Source of the DNA: Candidatus Aerophobota bacterium
GTDB lineage: Bacteria; Aerophobota; Aerophobia; Aerophobales; B3-G15
DNA: 17,167 bases
Direction of reading: 5' to 3'
Assembly: GCA_030607715.1 (NCBI GenBank)
Contig: JAUWJM010000016.1
Location: 1-17,167, forward strand
The position numbers and the translations under genes are program-made. Shown here in pieces: positions 2,436 through 11,505 of the stretch (position 1 is the first letter of the stretch; the number at the start of each line of letters is the position of its first letter). The notes beneath the pieces were generated by a model that saw only the letters and a program-made list of their open reading frames with translations, was not told where the DNA came from and searched no databases.

Positions 2436-3019
2436 AGACTTTCTTCATTAGCTATTATGCAGGAGAGTTCAAAACTCACTGCTAATAATTCCTTCGCCTC
2501 GGTACGAGTGATGGTAGATAAATTGATGTCCCCTAAAGATCTACTGAAGATCGGGTCTTCCTTGAGTTGTCGAGCAAAGTTTTCTATAGAGAGAAATCCC
2601 TGGTTATCACCGGGCAAGGCAAAACCCTTCAGGATCAAATTTGTGGGATTGATAGATATTGAACTTAACCAAATGTTATCTGGTATCAACTTACTGAGAG
2701 CTTGTAACTTTGGTGCCCCCCAGATTTGCTTTCCTCCAAGCTCGCTAATCAGAGATATTTTTTCACGGAGAGAATCCCACTCCTTCTTGTATTCCCTCAT
2801 CTTGAAAGCTTCTCTATTTAGCCTGGCAAATTTTCCCGAAATTGGCGTTAATCTATTGCGATAGCTTTTAATTTCATAATAATTGCCTATATAAACGTAT
2901 CCCATAAACATAAAACAAAGAAGAAAGGCCAGTAAAAAAGTAGCAAATATCATTTTTCTAAAATTTTTCGATCTATAAGTAGCTGACTTGCCTTTAATGA
3001 AGTTTAACTGAATCTTCAT
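2432..3019 (-). CDS. pilN: Type IV pilus assembly protein PilN
   Basis: A 195-residue bitopic protein. The N-terminal MKIQLNFI corresponds to the conserved short INLLP-like peptide that docks into PilM. A basic stretch follows (about 11-22), then one transmembrane helix (about 23-46), a coiled-coil segment (about 50-95), and a periplasmic domain (about 100-190, with a LIPDNIWLSSISI stretch typical of PilN/GspL-type domains). It sits 2 bp after pilM and overlaps pilO by 4 bp, the standard pilMNO order. The Shine-Dalgarno AAGGGA lies about 10 nt upstream of the ATG. Confidence 0.9.
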   Translation of the reverse strand: MKIQLNFIKGKSATYRSKNFRKMIFATFLLAFLLCFMFMGYVYIGNYYEIKSYRNRLTPISGKFARLNREAFKMREYKKEWDSLREKISLISELGGKQIWGAPKLQALSKLIPDNIWLSSISINPTNLILKGFALPGDNQGFLSIENFARQLKEDPIFSRSLGDINLSTITRTEAKELLAVSFELSCIIANEESL

Positions 3020-3021
3020 TC

Positions 3022-3963
3022 TTATTTTTCCCTTAATCCTAATCCAATGGCAATGGCCAGTGCATAACCTTTACTTTCCGTAAATTCGGAACCTAATTGG
3101 CCGGGATCAAATTCTATATCTTGCAAAGGGTTCCATTTTTCTATCGGTAATTCCAGAACTTTCAAAAATGGATCCTCAATTTGTAACCTGACAGCATTTC
3201 CACCAGTCAAAAAAATTTTTGTTACTTTATTTTTTTTACCCCTGCTCTCATGGTAATGAATAGAGCGACGAACTTCCCCAAATACTCTATCTAAGACGTC
3301 TTTATCTTTTAGGTCAAGAGGCCTTTCTAAACTAATGTCTCTGATAAAATATAGACTTTCCCGGCCTAAAATTGTTAGATTGATTAATCTTGCTCCAAGG
3401 TTTAAGACCATTACATGTTCCTGAGAGCTTATGTTTCTCAATTTAGAAAAGGAATTAGCCAGAGCCAAACAATCAATATCAATAGCTATAGAATTCAGAC
3501 CAGCCTGTCCAAGGGTTTTCATTCGCTGTTTAACCATTAATTTGGGTGCAGCTACAAAGAGGATATTTTGGTTTCCATCTTTTTCTTCACTCTGCGGTAA
3601 AACCTGAAAGTCAGTTTCTACTTCATTGAACTTATCGAGCATCACTCGTTGGGCTTCCAGATTAACCGCACTCTTTAATTCCTTTACTGAAAAGGGGGGG
3701 AATTGGAAGTATTGGATGATAATGGCCGGACCACTTAAAGAAGAAATCACATCCTTAGCTTTGATATGGTTTTCTCTCAATAAATGTTTAATAGCCCTGA
3801 CAACAGGACCTTTGTTTATCTGTTGATTGTGAGTTTTAAAATTGGCAACAGGGTTATCTATTATTCCTACTTTATCTAATCTTACCTTCCCATCCGACTG
3901 ACTCAACTGAACCAGTTTTATCAATCTGGCTCCAATATCTACACCAAGCACATTCTTAAGCAT
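3022..3963 (-). CDS. pilM: Type IV pilus assembly protein PilM (actin-like ATPase fold)
   Basis: A 313-residue cytoplasmic protein with an actin/FtsA-like fold. The phosphate-1 motif is at 7-20 (GVDIGARLIKLVQL), the phosphate-2 motif around 185-198 (VLNLGARLINLTIL) and the adenosine motif around 251-257 (FLTGGNA). PilM binds nucleotide and the N-terminal peptide of PilN, forming the cytoplasmic ring of the pilus alignment complex. In this family the canonical phosphate-1 motif often reads DIG(S/T)..(I/V)K; here an alanine follows DIG. Length is slightly below the usual roughly 350 residues. It starts 54 bp after the PilX-like gene and opens the MNOPQ block of the operon. Confidence 0.93.
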   Translation of the reverse strand: MLKNVLGVDIGARLIKLVQLSQSDGKVRLDKVGIIDNPVANFKTHNQQINKGPVVRAIKHLLRENHIKAKDVISSLSGPAIIIQYFQFPPFSVKELKSAVNLEAQRVMLDKFNEVETDFQVLPQSEEKDGNQNILFVAAPKLMVKQRMKTLGQAGLNSIAIDIDCLALANSFSKLRNISSQEHVMVLNLGARLINLTILGRESLYFIRDISLERPLDLKDKDVLDRVFGEVRRSIHYHESRGKKNKVTKIFLTGGNAVRLQIEDPFLKVLELPIEKWNPLQDIEFDPGQLGSEFTESKGYALAIAIGLGLREK

Positions 3964-6493: not shown

Positions 6494-7720
6494 TTACATA
6501 GCTCCTCCTAACTGAAAAATAGGTAGATACATTGCCAGAACAAAGAAAGCAGCTATTGCTCCCAGACCAATAATCAAAATTGGCTCCAAAGTTGCTCCAA
6601 GATCTTTTATCTTATAATCTATCTCCCTATCATAGAAATCGGCTATCTGGGGCAATATGTCGCTTAGTGTTCCCGATTCCTCACCCGTATGAACCATTCC
6701 TGTTACCAGAGAAGGGAAAAAACTCTGCTTTCTCATCTCTTTGCCCAGGGTAGAACCTTGAATAATCTTTTCACGCATTTCCCTTATAGCTTTTTCTGCT
6801 ACTGCATTATCGCTAATGGCAGCGGTTTGCTCAAGAGCAACTACCAGAGAAACCCCACTCTGCAATAAGATACCTAAAGCACGACATATCCGTGCCAGTA
6901 ACGTATCGTGAATGAATCTGGCAATTATGGGTAACTTCAACTTTATTTTATCCAGATTAGCCCGTCCTTTTCTTGTCCCGGCAGATCCAAATCCCAGAAA
7001 GCCTATTCCGACAATAAAAATTACTTCATAAACAAGGTTTTTAATAAAAAAGTCACTCATACTCATAGTAAAACGAGTGAGAGCAGGAAGCTCAGCTCCA
7101 TAAGCAAGAAATATCCCTTTAAATATGGGGATAAGATAAAAGATCATTATCCCCACTGCTACCACAAAGAAAAAAAGCATAAACATTGGATATCTACTGG
7201 CAGTGGCTATATTTTTTTTCAGGTTTATTTGACTTTCCAGAAAGCTGGCTATGTTAGAGATGACATCATCCAGTGATCCTGTCATTTCTCCCACAGTTAT
7301 CATTTCCTTGATTAGAGGAGGAAATATGCGAGGGTAGTCTGACAGGGCTTGAGAAAAGCTGCTTCCCCCGACTATACGTCTTTTTATCTGTCCTATGATA
7401 GAAGAAAAAACCTTGTTACTCATTTGAGAGGAAAAATCTTCAAGGCAATCTACTAAATTCATTCCCGCCTTTAACATAGCACCTAACTGACGAAAGAAAA
7501 TTGCTTTTTCAGATGCCTTTATCTGGCTGGCAACTGAAAGATTATTAAGCTCACTCATCACCTGCCTGAAAAAAGTACCTGATCTGATCTTCTGTACCGA
7601 AATTGGCGTAAGATTCCTATTTCGTAAAAAAGAGGTTACTTCCAGTATGGAGTTTGCCTCATAATGAGTTTCAACTCTCTGTCCCTGATTATCTACACAG
7701 ATACAATTAAATTTGGGCAT
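6494..7720 (-). CDS. pilC: Type IV pilus inner-membrane platform protein PilC
   Basis: A 408-residue polytopic inner-membrane protein of the PilC/GspF family, which couples the motor ATPases to pilin insertion and extraction. Two homologous cytoplasmic T2SSF domains are visible: one at about 75-198, with FFRQLGAMLKAGMNLVDCLE and the motif ITVGEMTGSLDDVI, and a second at about 275-400, with ICRALGILLQSGVSLVVALE and GMVHTGEESGTLSDILPQIADFYD. Transmembrane segments are at about 178-199, 228-246 and 379-402. Length matches the family. The Shine-Dalgarno GAGGAA overlaps the pilB stop, and only 2 bp separate the genes, so pilB and pilC are translationally linked. Confidence 0.95.
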   Translation of the reverse strand: MPKFNCICVDNQGQRVETHYEANSILEVTSFLRNRNLTPISVQKIRSGTFFRQVMSELNNLSVASQIKASEKAIFFRQLGAMLKAGMNLVDCLEDFSSQMSNKVFSSIIGQIKRRIVGGSSFSQALSDYPRIFPPLIKEMITVGEMTGSLDDVISNIASFLESQINLKKNIATASRYPMFMLFFFVVAVGIMIFYLIPIFKGIFLAYGAELPALTRFTMSMSDFFIKNLVYEVIFIVGIGFLGFGSAGTRKGRANLDKIKLKLPIIARFIHDTLLARICRALGILLQSGVSLVVALEQTAAISDNAVAEKAIREMREKIIQGSTLGKEMRKQSFFPSLVTGMVHTGEESGTLSDILPQIADFYDREIDYKIKDLGATLEPILIIGLGAIAAFFVLAMYLPIFQLGGAM

Positions 7721-7722
7721 TT

Positions 7723-9498
7723 TTATTCCTCAAAAGTGATACTTAGAGTTTCTTCAATAGTGGTTATTCCTTGCCAAAATTTTTCTATAACAGATTCTCT
7801 AAGGGTTCTCATTCCCTGTTTGGATGCCTCTTTCCTTAAAATATCCATATTAGCTCCTTCAAAAATTAGTTTCTTTACCCGAGAAGTGATTTCGAAGAAT
7901 TGGTAGGCAGCAGTTCGACCCCGATAGCCAGTATAGTTACAATACGAACAACCTTTACCTTTGAATAGCTTAAAATCATTTTTGCTTTCCTGAGCTAAAC
8001 CCAATTGTTCTAAAACCTTGTCAGAAACAGCATGGGGTTCCTGACAATGGGAACAAATTCTACGAACCAGTCTTTGGGCTATGATTAAATCAACAGCAGA
8101 AGCAATAAGATAGGGTTCTATATTAAAGTATTCCAACTGAGCTATAGCATCAACAGCATCATTAGTGTGAAGCGTACTAAAGACCAGATGACCGGTTAGT
8201 GCAGCTCTTATAGCAATCTCCGCTGTTTCACGGTCGCGAATTTCCCCTATCAGGATTACATCAGGATCCTGTCGAAGAATGGAACGTAGACCATTGGCAA
8301 AGGTCAAACCAATATTAGGCTTTACCTGCACCTGATTGATTCCTGCTAAATCATATTCAATAGGGTCTTCTATAGTAATAATATTTTTTTCCACAGTACT
8401 AATATGCTTTAAACCGGCGTAGAGAGTGGTAGTTTTTCCACTGCCAGTTGGTCCGGTCACTAATATCATTCCATAGGGACGTTTGAGGACTTCCTGGAAT
8501 GTTGAAAACTGATCAATAGCAAAACCCAATTCTTTAAGATCTACGAAAAGTTTTTCTGTATCCAAAAGGCGCATAACCACTCTTTGTCCGTACATAGTAG
8601 GAAGGGTGGAAACTCTGATATCCACTCTCCTGTCGCCTATTTTCACCAGGCAACGGCCGTCTTGAGGTAGCCTATGCTCGGCAATGTCCAGATTAGAAAG
8701 AATTTTTATACGCGAGATAATGGCCAGGCACATAGTTTTAGGAGGAGGTGATACTTTATGCAAAACTCCATCAATGCGAATTCGAATATCCATGGTTTTT
8801 TCTTTAGGTTCAATATGAATATCACTAGCCCTGCGCTCAATAGCATCTAACAGTAGCAGATTAACAAACTTGATCACTGGTGGATCATTGGCACGAAGTT
8901 TAATCTGAGTAACATCCATTCCCGTTTCTAAATCAGTCGTAGCTTCATCTACCTTAACTAAATCTAACAGAACTGTCTCCATATCAGGAAAACCACCATA
9001 ATTTTTGTCTATGGCCGCCATAATATCTTTTTCTGAAGCCGGAACAGCATTAATCTCATAGCCACTAATAGTCCTGATGGTATCAATAGTTACAACATCG
9101 CTGGAATCTGCCATAGCTACAGTAATCACCTTTCCATCCTTAAACAGAGGGATAAGATGATAACGTTTGGCTATAGTTTCAGGAATTAATTTCAAGATTT
9201 CAAGATCAATATGTTTGGGGAATAATTTCTCCTTAGAAATGGAAACAGGCTCTTCTTTCTCTAAAGCACTAAGCTCCCCCTTGTCAATAACATTAAGGTC
9301 TACTAATGTTTTTTTCAGAGATTTCTTTAAAGCACTAAGCTCCCCCTTGTCAATAACATTAAGGTCTACCAGGATTCTTTCCAGAGGTTGCTTAGTTTCC
9401 CTTTGTTCTGCTAAAGCTTCGTTCAATTGAGATTCAGTAATCAATTTTCTATTGAGCAGTGCCTCTGTAACAACCCACTGACGACTTTTAGTAAGCAT
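7723..9498 (-). CDS. pilB: Type IV pilus extension ATPase PilB
   Basis: A 591-residue GspE/PilB-type hexameric motor that powers pilus extension. The N-terminal domain (about 5-80) is a degenerate MshEN-like region (LLNRKLITESQLNEALAEQ, then PLERILVDLNVIDKGELSAL). Next come a linker and N2-like domain (about 88-190) and the ATPase core: Walker A GPTGSGKT at 349-356, Asp box IITIEDPIEY at 373-382, Walker B DVILIGEIRD at 413-422, His box ALTGHLVFSTLHTNDA at 433-448. A zinc-binding tetracysteine lies at C482/C485 and C517/C520. PilB rather than PilT is supported by the N-terminal domain and zinc motif. Oddity: a 22-residue in-frame tandem duplication at about 36-79 (LVDLNVIDKGELSAL twice), encoded by a 66-bp repeat. 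AGGA precedes the ATG at 8 nt. Confidence 0.95.
   Translation of the reverse strand: MLTKSRQWVVTEALLNRKLITESQLNEALAEQRETKQPLERILVDLNVIDKGELSALKKSLKKTLVDLNVIDKGELSALEKEEPVSISKEKLFPKHIDLEILKLIPETIAKRYHLIPLFKDGKVITVAMADSSDVVTIDTIRTISGYEINAVPASEKDIMAAIDKNYGGFPDMETVLLDLVKVDEATTDLETGMDVTQIKLRANDPPVIKFVNLLLLDAIERRASDIHIEPKEKTMDIRIRIDGVLHKVSPPPKTMCLAIISRIKILSNLDIAEHRLPQDGRCLVKIGDRRVDIRVSTLPTMYGQRVVMRLLDTEKLFVDLKELGFAIDQFSTFQEVLKRPYGMILVTGPTGSGKTTTLYAGLKHISTVEKNIITIEDPIEYDLAGINQVQVKPNIGLTFANGLRSILRQDPDVILIGEIRDRETAEIAIRAALTGHLVFSTLHTNDAVDAIAQLEYFNIEPYLIASAVDLIIAQRLVRRICSHCQEPHAVSDKVLEQLGLAQESKNDFKLFKGKGCSYCNYTGYRGRTAAYQFFEITSRVKKLIFEGANMDILRKEASKQGMRTLRESVIEKFWQGITTIEETLSITFEE
9256..9387 (-). repeat. 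66-bp in-frame tandem duplication inside pilB
   Basis: Two direct copies lie 66 bp apart. The core 42 bp (9262-9303 and 9328-9369) is identical; identity falls off in the outer part of each unit. Both copies are in frame and each encodes LVDLNVIDKGELSAL. The unit equals one half-motif of the MshEN-like N-terminal domain, so the protein gains an extra helix-turn unit. The perfect core suggests a recent slippage or unequal recombination event. Confidence 0.93.
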
Positions 9499-9670
9499 AG
9501 AATGTTTCCTGATATGGTAGCGTCAAATCTGTCAATTAAAACTTAAATCACCTAAAATAGTGCACTTTTAAATTTTAGCTAACACTACGCGTGTCAAATC
9601 TAAAAATTGAAGGTAAATTTTGTGGTTTTAGAAAGAGGAGGAAACTTTTGTTAAGACTTATGGCAAATAT
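9499..9670. promoter_or_regulatory. Upstream region of the pilB operon with palindrome and repeated motif
   Basis: This 172-bp gap between the small regulator gene and pilB probably holds the operon's own control signals. Seen in it: GTCAAATCT as a direct repeat at 9522-9530 and 9593-9601 (TTGAC-containing when read toward pilB); an inverted repeat CTAAAAT/ATTTTAG (9552-9558 and 9572-9578); and, between those arms, the palindrome AGTGCACT (9559-9566). TTGACA boxes occur, but none has a convincing -10 box at normal spacing, so I cannot place a promoter. The regulator transcript may also read through into pilB, as no terminator is evident. Confidence 0.45.
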
Positions 9671-10006
9671 TCACCGAGTATTTACGTTCTTTTGATAATT
9701 TCTGTTTTTTTGAAGAAAAAGAATTCGATTCAGCTCTTCCCTATTGATGAAATTCTCATTAAGAAGAATTTCTCCCAGCAGTTTATTTTCTCCCTCTTTT
9801 TGCTGAATTTCCAGCCCCTTATCAAGCTGTTCATCATTTATATAACCAATTTCACACAGTATCTCTCCCAGCTTCTTTTTCCCAAAGTATTCTTCCAATA
9901 TAGAGAGTATCACAGCACTTTTGCTTTTTCTCTCTTTTCTTGCCTTCTCTTTAATTGCATTAATTAAGAGTTTATCTTCTTCTCTATGATAGATACTGGT
10001 TTGCAT
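9671..10006 (-). CDS. Small ribbon-helix-helix protein with MshEN-like domain; putative pilus regulator
   Basis: A 111-residue protein. Residues 2-43 look like a ribbon-helix-helix DNA-binding domain: strand QTSIYH, helix about 8-25, turn KSKS, helix AVILSILEEYF. Residues 45-99 hold two 24-residue motifs of the LGE(I)L...(G)xI....L...L..Q type (KLGEILCEIGYINDEQLDKG.. at 45-68, LLGEILLNENFINREELNRI.. at 76-99) separated by 7 residues. This is the layout of the MshEN cyclic-di-GMP-binding domain, normally the N-terminus of PilB/MshE/GspE ATPases. The first motif keeps L-G and the mid-motif G with Lys instead of the usual Arg; the second has Leu there and lacks the mid-motif G, so ligand binding is uncertain. 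A TTG at 10018 is possible, but GGGGG just before the ATG at 10006 fits better. I infer a DNA-binding regulator of itself and the pilB operon. Confidence 0.75.
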   Translation of the reverse strand: MQTSIYHREEDKLLINAIKEKARKERKSKSAVILSILEEYFGKKKLGEILCEIGYINDEQLDKGLEIQQKEGENKLLGEILLNENFINREELNRILFLQKNRNYQKNVNTR

Positions 10007-10039
10007 TATTTCCCCCAAAATATAATTATTTTCAATTAT

Positions 10040-10067
10040 ATTATAATATAAAAAATTATTTTGTCAA
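10040..10067 (-). promoter_or_regulatory. Strong sigma70-type promoter of the ribbon-helix-helix gene
   Basis: TTGACA (10062-10067) and TATAAT (10040-10045) are both perfect consensus hexamers on the minus strand, with a 16-bp AT-rich spacer. Transcription would start near 10033, leaving a leader of about 27 nt before the ATG at 10006. A copy of the motif ATTTGACGC lies just upstream of the -35 box (10074-10082). Confidence 0.72.
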
Positions 10068-10091
10068 GAGGTCGCGTCAAATAAATTATTC

Positions 10092-10124
10092 TTGACAGCA
10101 AGGGAAGTTTTGCTATTCTATAAT
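10092..10124 (+). promoter_or_regulatory. Promoter of the xseA operon
   Basis: TTGACA at 10092-10097 is followed after 16 bp by an extended -10 element TGCTATTCT (TATTCT at 10114-10119). A second overlapping TATAAT at 10119-10124 is a better hexamer but lies 21 bp from the -35 box. Either gives a very short leader, which favours the second ATG of xseA (10150). It is divergent from the promoter of the ribbon-helix-helix gene, so the two may share control. Confidence 0.6.
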
Positions 10125-10149
10125 TGTACAAAAAACAATGGGAAAAATA

Positions 10150-11505
10150 ATGCAAAAAACACATATCTATACAGTTAGGGAAATTACTGATTATATAAAG
10201 GGAACTCTGGAAAAAGATGAAAAACTTCAGAATGTATGGGTAAAAGGAGAAATTTCAAATTTTAAGCTTCCTTCGAGGCATCTTTATTTTTCCTTAAAAG
10301 ATGAGGGAGGACTTCTGTCCTGTATTATGTTTCATGATAAATTAAAAAACCTGCAGTTTGATCTTGACAATGGTTTAGAGGTAATTGTTCGAGGAAGTAT
10401 AGGAGTTTATAAACCTCAAGGGAGATATCAGCTCTATGTAGAGGAAATACTTCCTGTAGGTAAAGGGCTGCTCTATTTAAATTTTGAAAAGCTAAAGGAG
10501 GAACTCCGGGAAAAGGGCTATTTCCAACCCGAGCACAAATTACCTTTGCCTTATTTACCTCAAAGAATAGGAATAGTTACTTCACCTAAAGGAGCAGCCA
10601 TTAGAGATATTCTTACAGTCCTGAATGAACGTTTCCTCAACTTAGAGATTATCATTGCTCCTTGTAGAGTTCAGGGAGATGAGGCACCAAAGGAAATTGC
10701 CCAGGCTATTGATGATTTAAATCAGCATAAAGGGGTAGATGTTATAATTATGGGAAGAGGGGGAGGTTCTCTGGAGGACCTTTTTGCCTTTAATGAGAGA
10801 ATAGTAGCTGAGGCTATTTATAATTCTCGTATTCCTATCATTTCTGCTGTTGGACATGAGATTGATGTAACCATAGCTGATTTTGTTGCCGATGAGAGAG
10901 TTCCCACTCCCTCATCAGCAGCTCAAAGAGTGATTCCTCAAAAAAAAGAACTTAAGATTAAGCTGGAGGATAAAAAAAGTAAGCTAAGTTCCTTGATAAA
11001 GAGAAAAGAACAGCTGATTTGCTCTGATGTGGAAAAATTAAAAAATTCTCTTAAGAGAGAACATCCCCAAAGGAAAATTCGTGATCTTAAACAGCAAGTG
11101 GATGATTTCAGAAAAAACTTAGGAGATTATATGAATCATCAATTTCAACTAAGAAAAAGTTATCTTTCCCACCTTGAGCAAAGTTTTATTCGACTGTCAC
11201 CTCAGAAAAGATATAATCTGGAAAAGGAAAAATTAAAAGAAACGGAAAAAAAGCTGTGCAGTACAATTAAAACAAAGTTGGAAAGGATAAAAGAGAAAAT
11301 AAATTCTTGTGCCAATAGGGTAGGAGACCTTTCTCCCTTATCTATCCTCGAGAGAGGCTACAGCATTTGCTTTAGCTATCCTGAGGGAAAAATAGTTAGA
11401 GAGTATCAACAGGTGAGGAAAGGAGAGAAAATAAGAGTTAAATTATACAGAGGGCATCTTTTAGGTGAGGTTTGTAAAGCTGAGGAGGAAAAAAGTGAAA
11501 TTTGA
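10150..11505 (+). CDS. xseA: Exodeoxyribonuclease VII large subunit
   Basis: The catalytic subunit of exonuclease VII, which degrades single-stranded DNA in both directions together with several XseB subunits. The N-terminal OB-fold domain (about 5-100) includes IYTVREITDYIKGTL and VWVKGEISNFKLPSRHLYFS. The catalytic domain has IGIVTSPKGAAIRD, the glycine-rich GRGGGSLEDLFAFNE, and the signature GHEIDVTIADFVADERVPTP followed by SSAA. A long coiled-coil follows (about 265-400). C-terminal LSPLSILERGYSI is also typical. The length of 451 residues is normal. An in-frame ATG at 10138 would add four residues, but 10150 aligns better with family starts and has GGGA at a usable distance. First gene of a seven-gene plus-strand operon. 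Confidence 0.95.
   Translation: MQKTHIYTVREITDYIKGTLEKDEKLQNVWVKGEISNFKLPSRHLYFSLKDEGGLLSCIMFHDKLKNLQFDLDNGLEVIVRGSIGVYKPQGRYQLYVEEILPVGKGLLYLNFEKLKEELREKGYFQPEHKLPLPYLPQRIGIVTSPKGAAIRDILTVLNERFLNLEIIIAPCRVQGDEAPKEIAQAIDDLNQHKGVDVIIMGRGGGSLEDLFAFNERIVAEAIYNSRIPIISAVGHEIDVTIADFVADERVPTPSSAAQRVIPQKKELKIKLEDKKSKLSSLIKRKEQLICSDVEKLKNSLKREHPQRKIRDLKQQVDDFRKNLGDYMNHQFQLRKSYLSHLEQSFIRLSPQKRYNLEKEKLKETEKKLCSTIKTKLERIKEKINSCANRVGDLSPLSILERGYSICFSYPEGKIVREYQQVRKGEKIRVKLYRGHLLGEVCKAEEEKSEI

Follow-up and report, generated by a model that had tools for sequence, protein, structure and literature searches.

What does a 111-residue protein encoded immediately before the pilus motor gene pilB of a Candidatus Aerophobota bacterium (GenBank assembly GCA_030607715.1, contig JAUWJM010000016.1) do with a pair of motifs of the kind that bind cyclic di-GMP (c-di-GMP) in MshE-type motor ATPases? 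The whole stretch analysed, 17,167 nucleotides (nt) in length, is here called the window, and the protein is called RHH-MshEN after its ribbon-helix-helix (RHH)-like and MshE-type halves. Our answer, to which we assign a probability of roughly 0.7, is that RHH-MshEN is a one-component, c-di-GMP-responsive and probably autoregulated regulator of surface-attachment genes, with candidate ligand- and DNA-binding halves predicted from sequence and structural models. On this reading, the sensor module of the pilus motor would have been built into a c-di-GMP transcription factor, one found across a phylum that is known largely through metagenome-assembled genomes. Papers are cited by PMC number for those parts of their text that were available.

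An RHH-like half joined to an MshE-type domain

The joining of an RHH-like half to an MshE-type c-di-GMP domain, proposed in the initial annotation of this locus, is well supported by profile matches, homologue layout, residue conservation and structural matches. The annotated open reading frame (ORF) of 111 amino acids with two tandem 24-residue motifs was recovered on the minus strand (motifs at residues 45-68 and 76-99), and its product matched the profile NF053729 with an E-value of 5e-13 and 48.6 bits, above the curated cut-off of 38; all 52 aligned family members matched the same profile at E <= 1e-5. Both motifs of the window protein hold the contact Gly at position 3 and the contact Gln at position 24 (G47 and Q68, G78 and Q99). 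Across the 208-row family alignment in which residue conservation was counted, these four are kept in 207, 206, 207 and 207 rows, respectively, and the window protein has the four-helix fold of MshEN_N.

Two cautions attached to the initial annotation were accurate as observations: Lys45 and Leu76 replace the Arg that opens both motifs of published MshEN domains (PMC5013675), and Asn85 occupies the mid-motif Gly site of motif 2. The Lys/Leu substitution falls away as an objection, because the GSPII-B domain of Thermus thermophilus PilF, with the same pair at the same positions, binds c-di-GMP at 6 nM, 83-fold tighter than MshEN, leading its authors to widen the consensus to R/K/L (PMC11731258), which K45 and L76 fit; Pro opens motif 2 in 33 of the 208 family rows. 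The departures from MshEN that remain are Asn85, at a site with Gly in 84 of the 208 rows (motif 1 has its Gly, G54), and an inter-motif linker of seven residues rather than five. Pfam MshEN (PF05157), a model of 90 positions compared to the roughly 55 of the stretch here, was absent among the Pfam matches of the window protein, and matches to FumaraseC_C and DUF4388 were rejected as below cut-off. Domains lacking the C-terminal subdomain retain c-di-GMP binding, at 54 nM for PilF (PMC11731258) and 0.35 µM for MshE (PMC5013675). Collectively, these features suggest that the MshE-type domain of the window protein would bind c-di-GMP.

The N-terminal half was tentatively assigned to the RHH fold on the strength of its fold, conservation and relatives, given that its Pfam score alone was below cut-off (residues 1-43 against RHH_1, PF01402: 15.2 bits, gathering cut-off 20.5). 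The profile check proposed with the initial annotation thus succeeded for the sensor half through NF053729 and fell short for residues 1-43 and for PF05157. Among family members, RHH_1 matched 22 of 52 at E <= 0.1, with a best value of 0.0013. Model overlays gave a strand-helix-helix layout, and when the first 46 to 61 residues were compared by structure, the matches included CopG, Arc and CdbA. Three residues of this half, Q2, S/T4 and Y6, are nearly invariant in the 208-row alignment, and by register presumably correspond to the CopG strand positions that read DNA; SKSA opens the second helix here as in CopG. The N-terminal half is accordingly modelled as a putative DNA-binding domain. Homologues with E <= 0.01 numbered 185, and all 120 among the matches listed have the two-part layout; homologues lacking either half, named by the initial annotation as a sign against the fusion, were not among them. 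No description of an RHH-MshEN protein was found in the available parts of the literature searched on MshEN, RHH and c-di-GMP riboswitches (mostly non-subscription; PMC7156744, PMC8844925, PMC12452182, PMC12564702, PMC12943098 and PMC10519070), and the fusion partners of MshEN named in the available main text of PMC5013675 include no DNA-binding domain as such.

A single-sequence scan of genome contigs gave no match, and the family alignment was needed as the query. Carriers were mostly Aerophobetes and Bipolaricaulota (Acetothermia); four loci labelled as other phyla (L006, L012, L018 and L030) come from genomes that nevertheless belong to the phylum set of genome G004. In that set, 74 of 100 genomes matched at E <= 1e-8 (67 at full length, 7 partial only); in the Aerophobetes set, 6 of 17 genomes matched (4 at full length). 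GGDEF was detected in 97 of the 100 and 12 of the 17 genomes, and in all 25 of the genomes that carry 25 of the first 42 loci; since GGDEF is near universal in these genomes, its co-occurrence was set aside as weak support. The loci L014, L021, L027 and L028 each carry the gene in two or three copies. At L031 (1276-1623) the gene is followed by a second small protein with an MshE-type motif and a different N-terminus (first 70 residues), and two contigs from a viral collection each encode a protein that has a pair of MshE-type motifs at its N-terminus and also a hydrophobic stretch (L043, 9989-10549; L044, 9992-10654).

Riboswitches, surface-protein genes and a promoter repeat in relatives

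Our survey comprised 93 distinct full-length genes from 89 loci, 4 of them Aerophobetes and most of them Bipolaricaulota. Among the 200-nt upstream regions of 94 genes, the window gene included, long common words were far more frequent than in shuffles, and at the gathering level Rfam gave 30 matches to the riboswitches c-di-GMP-I (RF01051) and c-di-GMP-I-GGC (RF03167) in 15 of 20 loci scanned. A simple text pattern that found 20 of these 30 was replaced by a model, R1, which was built from 25 of them and is to that extent circular. Over the 89 loci and the window, R1 gave 119 matches, none in the window, with 118 on the strand of the gene and 95 within 400 nt. A same-strand riboswitch lay within 400 nt of 57 of the 93 genes (49 upstream, 45 downstream, 37 both) and of none of the other 36. 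Most upstream sites (39 of 51) end 39-70 nt short of the gene start, and most downstream sites (40 of 47) begin 0-137 nt past the stop; the expected number per flank is approximately 0.03 if sites were uniform within loci and 0.0006 from the genome-wide density (RF01051 alone with strict filters, 491 in 166 Mb). Mapping the riboswitch label on a tree of the 94 proteins takes 9 changes, of which well-supported branches force at least 6, and the link has therefore been lost or gained several times.

Three same-strand riboswitches within about 2 kb were found at ten loci (L081, L087, L095, L099, L100, L103, L106, L108, L109 and L116). The order observed at five of them is riboswitch, secreted-looking subtilase, riboswitch, RHH-MshEN, riboswitch, followed at L100 and L116 by a giant surface-type protein. 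The upstream gene was a subtilase at each of the five loci scanned (L081, L099, L100, L103 and L116; Peptidase_S8, 148-167 bits), and the downstream genes at the two scanned, L100 and L116, encode surface-type giants of 1581 and 1670 amino acids. One 355-residue neighbour gene product is a subtilase. Closer to the window, a single riboswitch lies 267 nt downstream of the gene for its sister protein at L001, and L047, from the Aerophobetes genome G106, carries the gene at 1501-1839 with two c-di-GMP-I riboswitches (one at 2950-3026) and a minus-strand GGDEF-type ORF (2389-2880) on the same contig stretch. The window itself showed no c-di-GMP-I riboswitch at the Rfam gathering score, and our own model reached at best 8.3 bits (E = 0.31).

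The genes that follow RHH-MshEN in relatives are often giant surface proteins of the Ig/cadherin type. A downstream ORF was present for 86 of the 93 genes, on the same strand for 60, of which 51 were at least 120 amino acids long and within 700 nt. At E <= 1e-5, Big_9 was found in 12 of these 51, DUF7507 in 11, DUF11 in 8 and LTD in 7, compared to Big_9 in 2 of 106 background ORFs from the same loci, where DUF7507, DUF11 and LTD fell outside the 25 families listed and hence occurred at most twice each. The background began as 110 ORFs drawn from 528 and, after the removal of 2 duplicates and 2 members of the foreground, also held surface-type families (NPCBM_assoc, n = 4; Ig_VWA7, n = 3; SdrD_B, n = 2). 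By a crude rule, products of at least 700 residues with a hydrophobic start numbered 13 of 51 downstream and 11 of 299 otherwise. Fisher values for the downstream enrichment are too optimistic because of shared ancestry, and plainer neighbours occurred too, such as glycerol-3-phosphate acyltransferase (3 of 51) or a second copy of the RHH-MshEN gene (2 of 51). A chaperone-usher pathway considered at L011, L021, L023, L032 and L037 received no Pfam support among the genes scanned. As the gene stands, in many relatives, beside c-di-GMP riboswitches and before large surface-protein genes, one signal may be read twice for attachment.

In a subset of these promoters, the -35 box has next to it an inverted repeat that is almost restricted to the RHH-MshEN gene. 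Among riboswitch-bearing promoters, 39 have a recognised -35 box, and in 18 of these the form GRC-N2-5-GTC was found just upstream of it, against a mean of 1.8 and a maximum of 6 in single-base shuffles. The pattern GACRRATGTCCNCTTGAC, with one mismatch allowed, matched 22 times, with 19 of 100 genomes represented, compared with once for the reversed control, and by eye 18 of these matches sit immediately before an RHH-MshEN gene copy (that of genome G028 being a partial match). Because GACRRATGTCCNCTTGAC was derived from such promoters, its rarity elsewhere is what counts. No riboswitch was found at the four matches away from known gene copies, two of which fall within open frames of 91 and 151 codons and are likely chance matches, with a third of ambiguous standing. 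At L119 (315-332), a perfect match without a riboswitch precedes the gene for a Cys-rich, secreted-looking protein, a possible second target.

The pilus locus and competing explanations

In the window, the near-perfect promoter and the position just upstream of pilB given in the initial annotation were both confirmed (Table 1), with the two genes on the same strand and 172 nt apart. A GGGGGA stretch before the ATG is a possible ribosome site. Past pilB, the one pilus gene tested by profile, lie genes that by look resemble the remainder of a type IV pilus operon, and the divergent gene upstream of RHH-MshEN looks xseA-like. An 18-nt inverted repeat (10000-10017 and 10139-10156, 89% complementary) coincides with the starts of these two divergent genes.

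Table 1. Window coordinates of the RHH-MshEN gene, its parts and adjacent features
Feature	Position	Strand	Basis or detail
RHH-MshEN protein gene	9671-10006	minus	ORF; 111 aa, ATG at 10006, stop at 9671
Candidate DNA-binding half, RHH-like, residues 1-43	9878-10006	minus	
24-residue c-di-GMP motif 1, residues 45-68 (K-L-G ... L61, L65, Q68)	9803-9874	minus	NF053729 profile
24-residue c-di-GMP motif 2, residues 76-99 (L-L-G ... L92, L96, Q99)	9710-9781	minus	NF053729 profile
Sigma-70 type promoter of RHH-MshEN gene, TTGACA-16-TATAAT	10040-10067	minus	Consensus match 12/12
Regulator-pilB intergenic stretch, candidate target DNA	9499-9670	minus	Read directly
pilB, extension motor ATPase, first downstream gene	7723-9498	minus	T2SSE profile, 463 bits
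pilC-like gene, next in pilus gene run	6494-7720	minus	ORF; named by look, no profile run

The window PilB scored 57 bits against MshEN and 43.3 bits against NF053729 (cut-off 38), a score that alone would not reveal the loss of contact residues: its motifs open with VVT and PLE in place of RLG, both contact Gly are gone, and the closing Gln of motif 2 is lost whilst the first is kept. In XpsE, where c-di-GMP binding is lost, the changes include both Gly and the second Gln (PMC5013675). The initial annotation suggested that the second messenger of the motor could also tune pilus gene expression; that it still tunes the motor is doubtful here, given these losses from PilB. With PilB degenerate in this way, it is probably the regulator rather than the motor that carries the c-di-GMP input in this genome. 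The N-terminal part of pilB also contains an in-frame 66-bp tandem duplication (9256-9393; 2.1 copies, 87% matches) that repeats LVDLNVIDKGELSAL.

We envisage that the RHH-like half dimerizes and binds operator DNA by its own promoter and near the start of the neighbouring surface-attachment operon, which in the window would be pilB and the pilus genes. Binding of c-di-GMP by the C-terminal four-helix domain would change the shape of the dimer, hence its grip on DNA, and from a site next to the -35 box the dimer could act as repressor or as activator. In Bipolaricaulota, large surface-protein genes are frequent neighbours, and c-di-GMP-I riboswitches ahead of both the regulator and the surface protein would provide a further check, probably within one transcript. 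We lean slightly towards such dual-layer control, in which riboswitches and the encoded RHH-MshEN, with the same ligand and the same promoter, gate giant surface proteins and at some loci a secreted subtilase, whilst in the window, where the motor has lost its own site, gating of the pilus operon would be left to the protein alone. An RNA and a protein sensor of one ligand at one locus is a design that raises the questions of why two, with which affinities and by which logic, and the RHH-MshEN gene could serve in these genomes as a marker for genes of surface attachment that c-di-GMP controls.

Several results weigh against pilus control. Linkage to pilus genes proved local rather than general, and is unusual for this gene: with the window pil proteins as queries, PilB was found in the fetched flanks, many of them short, of 1 of 44 loci, and T2SSE was the downstream gene in 1 of 51 cases, both being L039. 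Repeats in the window before pilB (GGTAGCGTCAAAT, 9516-9528, and GTGTCAAATCT, 9591-9601) that resemble one before the RHH-MshEN gene (GGTCGCGTCAAAT, 10070-10082) were rejected as an operator, as 91 of 300 shuffles gave as good a match between the two intergenic stretches. These results speak for a less likely, though serious, alternative, in which the protein binds c-di-GMP but regulates only its own gene locally or is a DNA binder of the nucleoid type, with no part in pilus control and its place beside pilB accidental; the near confinement of the operator pattern to the regulator's own promoter, and the lack of any pil match in the fetched flanks of L001, the closest placed relative, point the same way. 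Accident is harder to reconcile with the short, same-strand spacing to pilB, with L039, a distant relative whose gene precedes two T2SSE-type motor genes resembling pilT and pilB, and with the enrichment of surface-type genes downstream in other relatives. Of the one-component regulator first proposed, the fusion thus stands and the pilus-specific part is restricted to the window and L039.

The DNA-binding half is the point at issue in an unlikely alternative, in which RHH-MshEN is a protein-protein adaptor whose MshE-type domain relays c-di-GMP to a motor or kinase and whose N-terminal helices only dimerize; the weak RHH profile score and the many non-DNA fusion partners of MshEN (PMC5013675) agree with this. 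CopG, Arc and CdbA among the structural matches, and the promoter-specific inverted repeat of a subset, argue for DNA binding instead. The near invariance of Q2, S/T4 and Y6, presumably in the DNA-contact register of CopG, does so as well. Class I riboswitches include cGAMP-selective ones, and the domain could be a relic without c-di-GMP binding or a receptor for another cyclic dinucleotide such as cGAMP, in line with the missing Arg of both motifs, the missing second mid-motif Gly and the longer linker of the window protein. MshEN itself also binds cGAMP, more weakly (PMC5013675). This we consider quite improbable in view of contact Gly and Gln kept in 206-207 of 208 rows, the 6 nM affinity of PilF with the same Lys/Leu pair (PMC11731258) and the c-di-GMP-I clan riboswitches that flank many of the genes. 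The regulator of surface-attachment genes remains our preferred reading, with control of pilB as its putative, local form.

Relation to known systems

RHH-MshEN shares its strand-helix-helix layout, by model overlay, with RHH repressors of the CopG/Arc/MetJ type, which are not known to carry a c-di-GMP domain. With the MshEN domain of Vibrio cholerae MshE (PDB 5htl) and PilF GSPII-B (8pdk and 8pe0) it has in common two 24-residue motifs, a four-helix fold and the contact Gly and Gln, and with the latter also Lys and Leu at the first motif positions; unlike both, it has no ATPase and no C-terminal MshEN subdomain, carries an RHH-like half in front and has a linker of seven residues, not five. 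Where c-di-GMP-I or c-di-GMP-I-GGC riboswitches are present, it would join them as a further sensor of their ligand, and the transcript is probably shared. A comparable case is CdbA of Myxococcus xanthus (6sbw and 6sbx), a small RHH protein tied to c-di-GMP, but it has no MshEN domain and binds the ligand through its own RHH (PMC7156744), whereas the RHH-like half of the window protein is followed by a second domain. Transcription factors that read c-di-GMP directly also include MrkH, VpsT, FsnR and BldD, although the receptor and DNA-binding domains of MrkH (PilZ), FsnR (REC and helix-turn-helix) and their kin differ from those of RHH-MshEN (PMC7156744, PMC12564702 and PMC5013675).
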